A stretch of DNA of 64,000 nt from an uncultured Pelagibacteraceae bacterium (GTDB taxonomy: Bacteria; Pseudomonadota; Alphaproteobacteria; Pelagibacterales; Pelagibacteraceae): the NCBI GenBank assembly GCA_902566775.1, contig CACFKF010000003.1:1-64000 (forward strand), given 5' to 3'. Position numbers and translations under genes: made by a program. Below are positions 54,927-61,569 of this stretch, piece by piece (the stretch's first letter is position 1; the number at the start of each line of letters is the position of its first letter). Below the pieces are notes generated by a model. It had not been told where the DNA came from. It saw nothing but the letters and a program-made list of their open reading frames with translations, and did not search any database.

Positions 54927-56000
54927 ATGATTAATTGTAATTTAAAAAATAAAATTATAAACGGTGATAGCATAAAGGAATTAAAAAAAATTCCGGACGA
55001 AAGTTTTGATTTAATTTTTGCAGATCCTCCCTACAATCTTCAATTAAGAAATCAATTGGTTAGACCTGATAGATCTAAAGTTAATGCTGTAAATGACAAA
55101 TGGGATCAATTTGAAAGCTTTACGACCTATGATAATTTTACTTTAAATTGGTTGACACAATGTAAAAGAGTTTTAAAAAAAAATGGAAGCATTTGGGTTA
55201 TTGGAAGCTATCATAATATTTTTAGGGTTGGCGCTATAATTCAAGATTTGGGATTCTGGATATTAAATGATGTAGTTTGGAATAAAAGTAATCCTATGCC
55301 AAATTTTAGAGGCACACGATTTACAAATGCCCACGAAACTTTAATTTGGGCTTCAAAAAATGAAAATTCAAAATATACTTTTAACTATCAATCCCTTAAA
55401 TGTTTAAATGATGATCTGCAAATGAGATCTACATGGAACCTTCCAATTTGTAGTGGAAAAGAAAGGTTGAAAAATAATGGAAAAAAAATTCATTCTACTC
55501 AAAAACCTGAAGCATTACTTCACAGAATATTATTAGCTTCTTCAAATAAAAATGACCTTGTATTAGATCCTTTTTTAGGATCAGGAACAACTGCCGTTGT
55601 ATCAAAAAAACTTGCAAGATTTTTTCATGGCATTGAAAAAGATAAAAAATATTTCGAAGCAGCAAAAAAAAGAATAAAAAATGCTAAACCTATAGAAGAT
55701 GATTATCTAGATACTTTGCAAAATAACAGATCCAAACAAAGAATTCCTTTTGGCTCTTTAGTGGAAATGGGAGTTATTAAACCAGGCACTGAAATATATG
55801 ATCAAAAGAAAAAATTTAATGCAAAAATTATGGTTGATGGGAGTATTAAATATCAACAATCTGAGGGATCTATCCATAAAGTTGCTGCAAAAATATTAGG
55901 TGCAGAAAGTTGTAATGGTTGGACATATTGGCATTATTTATCTGGAAGTATATTGAGACCAATAGATGAATTAAGACAAAGACTAAGATCAAATAACTAG
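54927..56000 (+). CDS. ccrM: Cell-cycle DNA adenine methyltransferase CcrM (GANTC)
   Basis: Orphan beta-class N6-adenine methyltransferase (357 aa). The catalytic DPPYNLQL and the SAM motif [13 protein letters not shown] appear in the order of the beta class. [14 protein letters not shown] precedes the SAM motif. The C-terminal about 85 residues form the RAMA-type domain seen in CcrM ([19 protein letters not shown], then GWTYWHYL). This domain separates CcrM from ordinary restriction methyltransferases, and no restriction enzyme is adjacent. Its stop shares CTAG with the convergent monooxygenase gene. Confidence 0.95.
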
Positions 56001-57115: not shown

Positions 57116-58104
57116 AAATAGTTTGAAATTGAGTTAAAAATTTTTTTTGTAAATGATGGCAATATTTGATCTTTAATATTTTTTTTATCTAAAAGGGAAC
57201 TATTTTTAATTTTAATAAATTTACTTTTTTTATTTAAAACAATTTTCATATCCATGTTTGACATTTTAATATTAATTTTTTTGTTAACAGAAATGTCAAA
57301 TTTATTTTTTTTAATTTCTTTCATAGGGAAAATTAACAAATTTTTTAAAAATTTAAATTTTTTATTTTTAATTAATAAATATTTATTTTGATTTCGATAA
57401 ATATTTGCTTCAAAATATTTTATTTTGTTAAATTTATTTTTTGATTTCAATCTAAAATCATTTCTTTTAAATGATTTACAACTTTTTGAAATTGGACATT
57501 CGTAGCATAATGGATTTGTTGGTTTGCATAACAAAGCTCCAATCTCCATAATGGCTTGAGCATAAGCACCTGCTCTGTTTGAACTTCCAAAAAAAGATTT
57601 TTTTTTATTTATATTATGTTTGGTGATTTCACTGTTTTCTTTTAAGAAAAAAATTCTTTTTAAAACTCTTTCAACATTACCATCTAAAGGAATAATCGAT
57701 TTATTAAATACTATTGCCATAATTGCTCTTGATGTGTAGTCCCCTATACCAGGAAGTGTTTTGAGTTCTTCAATAGTGCTTGGCAAATTTCCGCTGAATT
57801 CTTCAATAATTTTCTTTGCTGTTCGCTTTAAATTTTTTGCTCTTGAATAATATCCAAGTCCTTCCCAGCATTTCAATAATTTTGCCTCATTAACAGTTGA
57901 AAGTTTTTTTAAATTTGGAATTTTATTTATAAAATTATTAAAATAAGGAATCACAGTTTTAACTTGGGTTTGTTGCAACATAAATTCACTAACTAGTGTA
58001 AAATACTGCATTTGTTTTTTAGAAACTTGTTTTCTCCAAGGTAATACTCTCTTATTATTATCGTACCAATGTAGAATTTTTTTTGGTATGTTTTGGTTTT
58101 TCAT
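57112..58104 (-). CDS. mutY: A/G-specific adenine glycosylase
   Basis: Removes adenine mispaired with 8-oxoguanine. After the start (MKNQNIPKKILHWYDNNKR), LPWR, the helix-hairpin-helix LPGIGDYTSRAIMAI and PLDGNVERVLKRI with its catalytic Asp are clear. The 4Fe-4S ligands follow C-x6-C-x2-C-x5-C in LCKPTNPLCYECPISKSC. The C-terminal NUDIX-like domain is present but weak. I choose ATG 58104 (330 aa); the longer frame to 58149 would overlap the divergent dciA coding sequence. The two start codons abut as CATATG. Confidence 0.93.
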   Translation of the reverse strand: MKNQNIPKKILHWYDNNKRVLPWRKQVSKKQMQYFTLVSEFMLQQTQVKTVIPYFNNFINKIPNLKKLSTVNEAKLLKCWEGLGYYSRAKNLKRTAKKIIEEFSGNLPSTIEELKTLPGIGDYTSRAIMAIVFNKSIIPLDGNVERVLKRIFFLKENSEITKHNINKKKSFFGSSNRAGAYAQAIMEIGALLCKPTNPLCYECPISKSCKSFKRNDFRLKSKNKFNKIKYFEANIYRNQNKYLLIKNKKFKFLKNLLIFPMKEIKKNKFDISVNKKINIKMSNMDMKIVLNKKSKFIKIKNSSLLDKKNIKDQILPSFTKKIFNSISNYL

Positions 58105-58587
58105 ATGGAATTTAAACACAATACTAAGCAGAGAACCAAAACCATTCAAGGATTAAGATCTTTTAAAGATACCTTGCCCAAAAAAATAAAAAAAATCCTT
58201 AATAAAAAGGGACATATTTATTCTGAAACATTAGAAAATTGGAGATACATAGTTGGAAATGAATTATTTGATGTTTGTTATCCAAAGTCTTTTAAAAATT
58301 CAAATAAACTTAGAGTAAGCTGTTTGAATGTAATGGTCAAAAGGGGTCATGAAGTAGATGTAGAGTATTCTAAAAAATCAATTATCAATAAAATGAATAG
58401 TTTTTTTGGATACAATGTTGTTGAAAAAATAAAGTTAATTTCTTTTGAAAGAGAACATAAAAAAACTAAGGAAAATAATAGTTCGGATGTGACAAAAAAC
58501 CAACACATAAATAAAATATTAACCATAAAAAATGATAAAATTAAAAATTCACTTTTTGAACTAAACAGACTATATAAAAAAAAATGA
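58105..58587 (+). CDS. dciA: DciA-family (DUF721) replicative helicase loader/operator
   Basis: DUF721 protein (160 aa from the ATG at 58105). The N-terminal domain contains IKKILNKKGHIYSETLENWRYIVG (quoted in part), with the W-R-x-I-V-G motif typical of the family, then LRVSCLNVMV and FFGYNVVEKIKLI. The C-terminal tail is lysine-rich and probably disordered. DciA is the ancestral loader of the DnaB helicase where DnaC/DnaI are absent, as in most alphaproteobacteria. It starts back-to-back with mutY and overlaps the next gene by 4 bases. Confidence 0.85.
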   Translation: MEFKHNTKQRTKTIQGLRSFKDTLPKKIKKILNKKGHIYSETLENWRYIVGNELFDVCYPKSFKNSNKLRVSCLNVMVKRGHEVDVEYSKKSIINKMNSFFGYNVVEKIKLISFEREHKKTKENNSSDVTKNQHINKILTIKNDKIKNSLFELNRLYKKK

Positions 58588-59165
58588 AAAAAACTATATT
58601 GGCAATATTTTGTATAATATTTTTTTCAACTTCAGTTTTTTCGGACACTAAAATAAATCCAATTTACGAAGGAAATCTTGATGCAAAAATTCAACTTATC
58701 ATTTACGAGTCTCTCACCTGTAGTCACTGTGCTGATTTTCATAATGAAGTTTATCCTGAATTAAAAAAAGATTTTATCAATAAAGGTTTCGTAAAAATTG
58801 AATTCAGAAGTTTCCCCTTAGATTTGGCAGCATTAAATGCTTCAAAAATTGCTCATTGTAGAAATGATGGCAAATCTGACATTTTACATTTTCTATTTAA
58901 AAACCAAAAAAAATGGGCCAAAGGTAGCACGATTGATGAAATAAATTTAAAACTTAAAAAAATATTAGATAATGAAAAATTTAGAATAGATATAGATAAA
59001 TGCATTAATAACAAAAAAATAGAAGATCATATTTTGGAAGATCGAATCGAAGCAGTAAAAAAATTTAAACTGAATGCTACTCCTACTTTAATAATCAACA
59101 ACAAAAAGTTTGATAAAACATTAAACTATAAAAATTTAAAAAAAACTCTTGAAAAAATGATATAA
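58584..59165 (+). CDS. DsbA-like periplasmic thiol-disulfide protein
   Basis: Thioredoxin-fold protein (193 aa) with a signal peptide (KTILAIFCIIFFSTSVFS). The redox motif is CSHC in YESLTCSHCADFH, and a cis-proline loop is in ATPTLIINN. The inserted helical domain contains AALNASKIAHC. It matches the DsbA/Thioredoxin_4 group common in alphaproteobacteria. Likely an oxidase or isomerase for exported proteins; a DsbB partner is not in the window. Overlaps dciA by 4 bases. Confidence 0.9.
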   Translation: MKKTILAIFCIIFFSTSVFSDTKINPIYEGNLDAKIQLIIYESLTCSHCADFHNEVYPELKKDFINKGFVKIEFRSFPLDLAALNASKIAHCRNDGKSDILHFLFKNQKKWAKGSTIDEINLKLKKILDNEKFRIDIDKCINNKKIEDHILEDRIEAVKKFKLNATPTLIINNKKFDKTLNYKNLKKTLEKMI

Positions 59166-59172
59166 TTTGTTG

Positions 59173-61569
59173 ATGGAATTTAAAAAAATTCAACTTATCG
59201 GCTTTAAGTCATTTGCTGAAAAAACTGACTTTCTTATTGAGGAAGGTCTTACGGGTATCGTTGGTCCTAATGGCTGTGGAAAATCAAACATAGTAGAATC
59301 TCTTAGATGGTGTATGGGAGAAACCTCAGCAAAAAGTATGCGAGGTTCAGGAATGGAAGATGTTATTTTTTCTGGGACTTCAAACAAACCCTCAAAAAAT
59401 ATGGCAGAAGTTTCAATAACTTTAACCAACCAAGATAAAGATGGTCCGCACCAATATAAGAACTTAGATCTTATAGAAATCAAAAGAAAAATTGAAAAAG
59501 ATAAAGGTTCAAAGTTTTACATAAATAATAAAGAGACCAGAGCTAAAGATGCTCAAATGTTTTTTGCTGATTTATCCACAGGAGCTCATTCTCCTTCGCT
59601 AATTAGTCAAGGACGTATTGGGGCATTGGTAACAGCAAAGCCAGTAGACCGCAGAACCATATTAGAAGAAGCTGCTGGAATTGCTGGTCTGCATGTTCGT
59701 AGACATGAGGCTGAACTGAGACTGGAAGCTGCAGAAAACAATTTAAAAAGAGCCGACGAATTAAGAAGACAACAAGAAAGGCAACTGGCAAATCTTCAAA
59801 AACAAGCCGAGGAAGCAACCAAATATAAAATAATTTCTGAAGAAATTAAAAAAATTGAATCTGGTTTATATTTTTTAAGATTAAAAGATTTAGATCAAGA
59901 AATAAAACTAGAAAATGAAATAAATAATGAAGCAGAAAATGAAGTAAAAAAATTTAATGAAAAAATTGAAGATATTGAAAAAAATATAAAAATAGAAACT
60001 GAAAAAGTAGAGCCTATAAGAGAAAAAAACATAGAAAACTTATCTAAAATTCAAAGATTAAACTTAGAATTAAAGGGTTTAGACGAAGAAAATGAAAGAA
60101 TTCAAATTGAAATCGAAAATGTTAAAAAATCATTAAAAACCATTGAAGAAGATACTGATAGAGAAAAAAGTATTGTCATAGATGCAAACTCTAATGAGAA
60201 AAGACTTAAAGAAGAAAAAAATGAATTAATTGAGATAGACTCAAAATACTACGATACAGAAAAAAAATCTAACGAAGACTTGGGTACTACAAAAAATAGA
60301 CTAAATGATGAAATAGATAAAGTTAAAGAATTGATAAAGACTCAGAAAAATGAAGAAGCAATAACTATTCTTGATAACTGCAAAATAATCATAGAAGCGT
60401 ACGCGGACAGTTATAGTAAAAATCAAAATATAAAAAATGAGTCAATAAAAAGAAAAGAAAGAATTAATATAATTAAAACAGAAATAGAAAGCTGGAAAAA
60501 TTTACTAATTAATTCAGAAAAAATGGTAGATGAGCTTTTGGAAAGAAAAAATAAATTTTTATCTCAACTTAACGATTTAGAAAAACAACCACAATCACAA
60601 GCAGAAAAAAAAGGACAAATTTCTGAAAGTCTAAGATTAGCTGAAAAAGAAAAACAAGAAAACCAAACCGTTATAGACCAGATTGATAACAAAATTGTTG
60701 AACTTAGAAATGAATTAAATTCTACAAAAGAAAGTTCGATTGAAATAAGAGAAAGAAAAGCTAGTGCTGGTGCAACAATAGATGGTTTAAACAAAAGAAA
60801 AGATGACTTGCTTGAAAGAGTTCAAACTGAACTTGGTTTAAATGAAAATAATATTCTTGATTATTCAAATCTAGAAGAGAATGAAGAGTTTCCAGATGCC
60901 GTAACACAGGAAGAATTGCTAGATGCAAAAAAAAGGGATAGGGAAAAATTAGGATCTGTGAATCTTAGAGCTGATGAAGAAACAAATAAATATGTACAAG
61001 AAATAAAAAAAATGGAAGAAGATAGACAAGATTTGGTCAATGCCATAATTAAACTTAAAGAAAGTATAAACGAGCTTAATCAAAAAGGAAGAGAAAGACT
61101 TTTAGAAGCTTTTGAGAAAGTAAATCGTAAATTTAATGAAGTTTACACAAAACTTTTTAACGGAGGAAATGCAAAACTTGAATTAGTAGACTCTGACGAT
61201 CCTCTTGAAGCTGGATTAGAATTGTTGGTAAGTCCACCAGGCAAAAGATTACAATCTATAACTTTGCTCTCTGGCGGGGAACAAGCGTTAACAGCCCTTT
61301 CCTTAATTTTTGCTGTTTTTTTAACTAACCCCTCTCCTATATGTGTGTTAGATGAAGTTGATGCACCCTTAGATGATGCAAATGTTACTAGATTTTGCAA
61401 TTTATTAGATGAACTAACTAAAATTACTAGTACTCGCTTCATTATTGTTACTCATCATGCTCTTACAATGTCTAAAATGGATAGACTTTATGGTGTAACC
61501 ATGCCAGAAAAAGGCATTAGTCAGCTCGTAGCTGTTGATCTACAAAAAGCTGAAAGTATGGTAGCCTAG
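59173..61569 (+). CDS. smc: Short SMC-type chromosome segregation ATPase
   Basis: SMC-family protein of about 800 residues (ordinary bacterial SMC is about 1150-1190). Numbering from a TTG at 59167, Walker A is GPNGCGKS (33-40), the signature motif LSGGEQ lies at 701-706 and Walker B CVLDEVD at 726-732. I prefer the ATG at 59173, which begins MEFKKIQLIGFKSFAEK. Between the heads, residues about 170-600 are almost wholly Lys/Glu-rich coiled coil, with no roughly 150-residue glycine-containing hinge. Only about 385-415 looks non-helical. Conserved C-head lead-in LGSVNLRADEE is present. It follows the DsbA-like gene directly. Confidence 0.9.
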   Translation: MEFKKIQLIGFKSFAEKTDFLIEEGLTGIVGPNGCGKSNIVESLRWCMGETSAKSMRGSGMEDVIFSGTSNKPSKNMAEVSITLTNQDKDGPHQYKNLDLIEIKRKIEKDKGSKFYINNKETRAKDAQMFFADLSTGAHSPSLISQGRIGALVTAKPVDRRTILEEAAGIAGLHVRRHEAELRLEAAENNLKRADELRRQQERQLANLQKQAEEATKYKIISEEIKKIESGLYFLRLKDLDQEIKLENEINNEAENEVKKFNEKIEDIEKNIKIETEKVEPIREKNIENLSKIQRLNLELKGLDEENERIQIEIENVKKSLKTIEEDTDREKSIVIDANSNEKRLKEEKNELIEIDSKYYDTEKKSNEDLGTTKNRLNDEIDKVKELIKTQKNEEAITILDNCKIIIEAYADSYSKNQNIKNESIKRKERINIIKTEIESWKNLLINSEKMVDELLERKNKFLSQLNDLEKQPQSQAEKKGQISESLRLAEKEKQENQTVIDQIDNKIVELRNELNSTKESSIEIRERKASAGATIDGLNKRKDDLLERVQTELGLNENNILDYSNLEENEEFPDAVTQEELLDAKKRDREKLGSVNLRADEETNKYVQEIKKMEEDRQDLVNAIIKLKESINELNQKGRERLLEAFEKVNRKFNEVYTKLFNGGNAKLELVDSDDPLEAGLELLVSPPGKRLQSITLLSGGEQALTALSLIFAVFLTNPSPICVLDEVDAPLDDANVTRFCNLLDELTKITSTRFIIVTHHALTMSKMDRLYGVTMPEKGISQLVAVDLQKAESMVA

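Follow-up and report, generated by a model that had tools for sequence, protein, structure and literature searches.

The smc gene of the window (the whole stretch of DNA analysed here, 64,000 nucleotides) lies on the plus strand directly downstream of a dsbA-like gene, and encodes a protein of 798 amino acids in which the two halves of the ATPase head are connected by a predicted helical hairpin. The features of the locus are as follows, with the evidence for each in brackets.

58584..59165, plus strand: dsbA-like gene, 5' of smc in a conserved gene order (tblastn with the window neighbours)
59173..61569, plus strand: smc, hinge-less SMC of 798 amino acids (open reading frame from ATG; TIGR02168, 659 bits)
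59173..59688, plus strand: N-terminal half of the head, residues 1–172, with Walker A at 31–39 (PF02463 and PF13476 matches, AlphaFold2, motif)
59689..60339, plus strand: predicted ascending arm helix, residues 173–389, with the landmark E331 at 60163–60165 (AlphaFold2, heptad periodicity)
60340..60348, plus strand: predicted hairpin turn, residues 390–392, where the hinge would be (AlphaFold2, local pLDDT ~81–85; no hinge by HMM or hhalign)
60349..60834, plus strand: predicted descending arm helix, residues 393–554, with the landmarks W441 and P473 (AlphaFold2)
60970..61569, plus strand: C-terminal half of the head together with the adjoining end of the arm, residues 600–798 and the stop codon (signature 699–704, Walker B 724–735, AlphaFold2, head structures)

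A TTG at 59167 is a possible alternative start of smc. The upstream gene is presumably dsbA, a name given here from general knowledge.

The protein scores 659 bits against the SMC_prok_B equivalog model TIGR02168, above the cut-off of 567.35. Both ATPase heads were described as complete in the initial annotation, and all three motifs are indeed present: Walker A (GPNGCGKSN, residues 31–39), the signature LSGGEQ (residues 699–704) and Walker B (CVLDEVDAPLDD, residues 724–735). The same motifs recur in a set of 98 hinge-less loci, Walker A in 98, the signature in 96 and Walker B in 97, with some of the loci ending at contig edges. This set comprises 93 distinct sequences, some of them from one genome entered twice, and includes two MarineAlpha6-type loci of undetermined order; its members were presorted, before any hinge profile was run, by a length below 900 amino acids and the lack of a W.WDG motif. 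The nearest solved chains to the window protein, by sequence and by fold, are bacterial SMC heads. In comparison with the MukB/MksB class its best models and best structures are those of SMC, and the scores of Rad50 models are far under their cut-off. The closest named relative, with 88% identity, comes from an uncultured Pelagibacteraceae genome (locus L104).

The gene order around smc was compared by tblastn at 36 loci, hinged ones included. A DsbA-like match is located within ~0.5 kb upstream of smc at all 36, a MutY-like match further upstream at 32, and a DUF721-like match at 19. All 11 short forms have AtpI and AtpB 3' of smc; at full-length loci the two are found inside the retrieved stretch in 8 of 25 cases. 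In a tree based on the heads only, which contains 88 of 159 rows after near-identical ones were dropped, the 37 rows of Pelagibacterales (SAR11) form a single clade with an SH-aLRT support of 98; the trees do not include L156 and L157, on account of their run-on frames. The score above cut-off, the SMC heads as nearest neighbours and the shared gene order identify an ordinary smc by descent and by place, and by score, synteny and tree the window gene is an ordinary alphaproteobacterial smc.

Two further observations concern the upstream part of the window. The DUF721-like and mutY-like frames overlap head to head at 58093–58149 if their listed TTG starts are used. A DNA methyltransferase is encoded at 54927–56000, which we take to be CcrM-like.

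The region between the heads

The distance from head to head in the window SMC is ~450 residues. In 55 full-length alphaproteobacterial SMCs the corresponding medians are 336 residues of arm, 129 of hinge and 338 of arm, the head borders being placed by fixed offsets, so that the much shortened inter-head region reported in the initial annotation is borne out. Its further estimate of arms of half length is correct as to the direction only, as ~225 residues against ~337 amounts to about two thirds. Across the hinge-less forms, half of the head-to-head length is 225–266 residues.

AlphaFold2 predicts a single long helical hairpin for the window SMC (38 sequences; mean pLDDT 77, pTM 0.48). For an 857-residue form from the same genus (34 sequences) the mean pLDDT is 70 and the pTM 0.32, and both models are thus only moderate in confidence. 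The long antiparallel coiled coil that is typical of SMC-ScpAB arms is provided by the predicted hairpin, which is shorter than usual. The heptad periodicity supports a coiled coil to both sides of the tip; it becomes weak in windows across 353–436 and once more at ~521–618. A break in the coil that had been suspected at about 385–415 corresponds to the predicted turn at 390–392, inside the stretch of weak register. Among the best 50 matches listed by the structure search, only SMC or SMC-like chains were found and no separate fold for the tip.

The Pfam hinge model SMC_hinge (PF06470) gave no match in the window protein or elsewhere in its own genome. This model is nevertheless a weak test here: at E ≤ 1 it matches 19 of the 38 members of set A2, of which 23 carry a hinge (which 19 match is not resolved), and it does not match the Caulobacter SMC either. 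Some genuine alphaproteobacterial hinges, that of Caulobacter among them, appear to escape it, and surveys relying on PF06470 may therefore overcount hinge loss. For this reason a clade-specific profile was built from the hinges of 57 full-length alphaproteobacterial SMCs. It recovers its own rows (57/57, by construction) and all six short-armed hinged loci that lie outside it (E 1e-21 to 1e-30), but none of the 98 hinge-less loci, for which the best E value is 0.57. Likewise, when profiles of the middle regions are compared by hhalign, the short hinged group reaches a probability of 99.7, while none of six hinge-less groups (87 of the 98 loci) exceeds 0.2. Residues 350–450 of the window SMC match the hinge family neither with the Pfam model nor with the clade profile or hhalign, and the absence of a recognisable hinge, inferred earlier from the sequence, is upheld. 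The alternative of a mini-hinge finds no support in fold or sequence, since the tip is predicted to be a plain helical turn.

With a 23-row hinge alignment as query, 36 genomes were searched over their whole length. No hinge was detected in any of the 26 Pelagibacterales genomes, 11 of which are single contigs, and no second, hinged SMC was found in them, while all ten genomes of other alphaproteobacteria used as positive controls matched. Six of the ten controls had contributed rows to the query; the remaining four (G301, G280, G277 and G326) had not, yet matched. A hidden hinge is rejected, as Pfam, the clade profile, hhalign and the whole-genome search are all negative, and the loss of the hinge from the housekeeping SMC is real across the sampled order.

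Two other candidates for the middle region were also dismissed. The tip sequence VEGYDD..NW of the f2 family resembles a hinge remnant by eye, but its hhalign probability of 0.2 and HMM domain scores around or below zero leave this unsupported. A zinc hook is rejected, as CxxC occurs in the middle of none of the 98 loci.

Three residues serve as landmarks along the arms. All 98 hinge-less and all 6 short hinged loci have E331 and W441; among the 55 full-length loci, E331 is conserved in 52 and W441 in 50. P473 is present in all 98 hinge-less loci. The retention of E331 and W441 indicates that the proximal arm has been retained. The span from E331 to W441 has a median of 463 residues in full-length SMCs (178 of arm, 129 of hinge and 156 of arm), 178–185 residues in the short hinged SMCs (medians 40, 114 and 26), and 110 residues, without a hinge, in the window SMC. 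The loss of distal arm per side is ~130–140 residues in the short hinged lineage and ~110 net in the window. Both short lineages thus have a trimmed distal arm, and just one of them has also lost the hinge. R430, E437 and W441 form a strongly conserved site on the descending arm (residues 430–441; 60460–60495); W441 is located mid-arm in full-length SMCs and ~50 residues from the tip in the window SMC.

The tree based on heads joins the short lineages with the long-branched full-length row G277 (support 91, unstarred, drawn open). This grouping may be caused by long branches or by letter make-up, and whether the arm shortening is shared or parallel in the two short lineages remains open, as the tree does not resolve it. 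The two MarineAlpha6-type loci (L140:6001-8451 and L141:6001-8451) encode a hinge-less SMC of 817 amino acids, which sits on a long branch and whose tip is distinct, and their placement relative to Pelagibacterales is unsure.

Spread, integrity and length forms

Matches to TIGR02168 were found in 234 of 248 genomes of the order, 226 strong and 8 weak (E above 1e-6); no smc is thus reported for 22 genomes, 14 without a match and 8 with a weak one only. Among the frames listed for the order, none exceeds 891 amino acids. Of 31 genomes from the genus, 27 contain a match to the query, and the frames that cover the whole of it have 799–864 amino acids; the remaining frames are cut at contig ends, apart from those of G014 and G015 (L007 and L008), in which stops occur within the smc match as a result of sequencing error or decay. 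In the class, 95 of 143 genomes score above the TIGR02168 cut-off and many others have weak matches only. Most of the intact frames listed there have 1100–1530 amino acids, and the short ones among those listed are the window, G031 from its own family, G292 and G389, the last two being hinged. From these listed frames, the short form seems to be fixed across the order. Nor do the frames listed for close relatives include a full-length SMC, so that neither of the two refuting conditions set in the initial annotation, a hinge-family match in residues 350–450 or full-length SMCs in close relatives, is fulfilled.

A local deletion, a mis-assembly or a decaying gene could in principle produce such a protein, and the stops inside the matched frame in 2 of the 31 genus genomes are what this explanation can draw on. 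It is hardly tenable in view of the agreement of separate assemblies on the short smc, of 18 distinct sequences of exactly 798 amino acids, and of the occurrence of the short form in the listed frames across the whole order. In addition, pN is lower than pS in every region in seven comparisons, although pS is near saturation in most of them. The reading frame of the window gene is intact, and the gene is not broken, as had been stated at the outset.

Two exact lengths recur, with 27 loci at 857 and 18 at 798 amino acids. In the alignment of the two forms the offset is 0 up to residue ~378, +29 for residues ~379–398 and +59 thereafter, the 857-residue form being longer by 29 residues on the first arm helix and by a matching 30 on the second. 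The placement of the tip hairpin is best at +29, with a score of 44.8 against 23.8 for the next best at 0 (mean −17, sd 11.6). The predicted turn likewise shifts from 390–392 to 419–421, exactly +29, and the agreement between the alignment and both models points to an antiparallel hairpin with one homologous tip. As judged from the alignment, 29 and 30 residues flanking this tip appear to have been removed or added, with the direction unset. In the model of the 857-residue form, which has kinks at 390–392 and 448–449, the tip sits on an additional pair of helices (393–418 and 422–447) beyond the kinks.

The tip lies at ~60307–60366 of the window, and the length forms switch repeatedly within one genus. 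A quick tree of 45 genus rows, calculated without the tip columns, requires a minimum of four changes between 798 and 857 residues, two to three of which are forced by starred branches. Recombination between strains would account for this switching no less well than repeated deletion. Of all regions of the 798-residue forms, the tip is the least conserved (64% identity, compared with 75% and 68% in the arms); in the closest pair its pS is 0.42 and its pN 0.06. By these substitution counts the tip is under purifying selection, though less conserved than the arms. By eye, the tip of the 798- and 857-residue forms is not shared with the 812–814- and 864-residue forms of other genera.

These data bear on the idea that the hairpin tip is a new dimerization element, two tips forming a small helical bundle that closes the ring. 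The coiled-coil tip of RecN and the hook of Rad50 are parallels for such a dimerizer. The presence of the homologous tip hairpin (~379–398) in both forms, despite their differing flanks, and its position on the additional helical pair of the 857-residue form are in keeping with this role, which is nevertheless doubtful, if far from negligible: the tip is not common to the forms of other genera, it is the least conserved part of the 798-residue forms, and no CxxC is present in the middle region of any of the 98 loci.

Partner proteins and pairing of the arms

Of 118 genomes from the order, 106 have a match to ScpA and 105 one to ScpB; wherever positions are listed for both genes, as in G037 and G029, these are adjacent. 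ScpB is likewise missing from all 12 genomes that lack ScpA; eleven of the 12 have a completeness of 91–97%, and there the missing genes are likely to be gaps. A search for ParB was positive in each of 18 genomes, 15 of which belong to Pelagibacterales; the genome of the window is one of the 18.

The assembly from which the window comes is 79% complete, and neither ScpA nor ScpB was detected in it. The genes flanking scpAB in G029 are presumably argS and serS. In the window assembly the argS query yielded only a 35% match over residues 81–166 (E 1.5e-5) and the serS query no match, both without a positive control. Because argS and serS seem to be missing too, an assembly gap is the more likely cause; the absence of ScpAB looks like a gap, and the loss of ScpAB in this species is disfavoured.

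That the SAR11 SMCs pair in another way than through a hinge is an inference; there are no data that the protein dimerizes. The reading preferred here, held with no more than even confidence, is that of the housekeeping SMC of SMC-ScpAB which has lost its hinge and whose arms are paired by the heads, ScpAB and zipping. By descent, the hinge has been lost, each arm has been shortened by ~110 residues net and the helices are joined by a short turn; the absence of a hinge, its spread through the sampled order and the retained partners of relatives are observed and the hairpin is predicted, whereas the mode of pairing is inferred. At their head end, two SMCs might be connected through ScpA and the dimer of ScpB, and through engagement of the heads driven by ATP. 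The arms would zip along their length into a rod, with the hairpin tips side by side, and DNA would be kept in the compartment formed by the heads and the kleisin. The arms would act as a rod, or as a clamp whose tip can open, and no stable gate would exist at a hinge.

The SMCs might also meet through the heads, ScpA and ScpB only, the arms remaining free prongs of an open clamp that never closes into a ring. Neither AlphaFold2 nor hhalign reveals a dimerization fold at the tip, and ScpAB is kept in most genomes of the order, as expected for such a clamp. It is considered unlikely, as the arm lengths cluster at exact values (857 and 798) and the arms are under purifying selection, which together suggest that arm geometry matters. 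Another protein could instead supply a hinge or clip the tips in trans. No such partner was found and a protein of unrelated fold is not excluded, but hinge-family sequence was found in none of the 26 Pelagibacterales genomes, 11 of them single-contig, which makes this very improbable. The results do not separate the tip bundle, the open clamp and the partner in trans from one another.

Relation to known systems

The window SMC has the same head motifs, proximal landmarks and gene neighbourhood as the SMC of bacterial SMC-ScpAB (~1150 residues in alphaproteobacteria), and ScpA, ScpB and ParB are found in the order. It differs in lacking the hinge and in its arms of ~225 instead of ~337 residues.

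A clade of hinge-less SMCs in marine Actinobacteria was reported in 2025 (PMC12153180), and SMCs of this kind are therefore not wholly new. As far as the available text of that report goes, these proteins share with the window SMC an SMC head, an antiparallel coiled coil, the lack of a hinge or CxxC hook and a marine origin, and according to its authors they were not found beside a regular SMC. They belong, however, to another phylum, while the SAR11 loss is tied to the order, its partners and the landmarks, and the window-type rows share their neighbourhood and landmarks with the alphaproteobacterial SMC. The words SAR11 and Pelagibacter are absent from the main text of PMC12153180. The retrieval described there required 80% mutual coverage with the seed, and this rule, by inference from the portion available, could drop proteins of ~800 residues against seeds of ~1150. 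Among the titles and abstracts listed for the literature searched, none reports a hinge-less SMC in SAR11.

Two engineered or distant systems are of relevance to pairing without an SMC hinge. B. subtilis Smc(Zh), in which the Rad50 zinc hook replaces the hinge, is described in the accessible part of PMC5344682 as growing normally on rich medium. Like the window protein it is an SMC without an SMC hinge, but it is artificial and contains another, known dimerizer, and because the chimera still had a dimerizer the precedent is limited. Rad50/SbcC similarly combines an ABC head with a long helical hairpin and no SMC hinge; it is distinguished by the mid-region CxxC, which all 98 window-type loci lack, and by the Rad50 scores mentioned above.

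Dimerization through the hinge is treated as central to SMC rings. SAR11 is a very abundant ocean lineage of which cultured strains exist. It is proposed, tentatively and with less than even confidence, that Pelagibacterales run SMC-ScpAB without a hinge or a tip dimerizer, that the hinge and its gate are dispensable in nature, and that the hinge was lost after or together with the trimming of the distal arm, separately from Actinobacteria. The hinge has been named as a gate for obstacle bypass in a 2025 article, so far as its accessible part indicates (PMC12647877). With ScpA, ScpB and ParB kept in the absence of a hinge, SAR11 represents a natural deletion experiment on the hinge-dependent steps of SMC action, for which the short-armed hinged SMCs of other alphaproteobacteria provide a natural comparison.

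The latter SMCs (L091, L092, L144, L145, L147 and L151; 864–881 amino acids) are a natural "mini-SMC" of other alphaproteobacteria, and their genomes, such as G292, are presumably of the HIMB59 type. Their distal arm is likewise cut between the same landmarks, but they keep the hinge, and their relation to Pelagibacterales in the tree is unresolved. For prokaryotic SMCs, arm-length modes of 238, 341 and 515 residues are given in the part of PMC5344682 that was available. The full-length alphaproteobacterial arm of ~337 residues fits the mode at 341, and the 225–266 residues of the hinge-less forms lie near that at 238.
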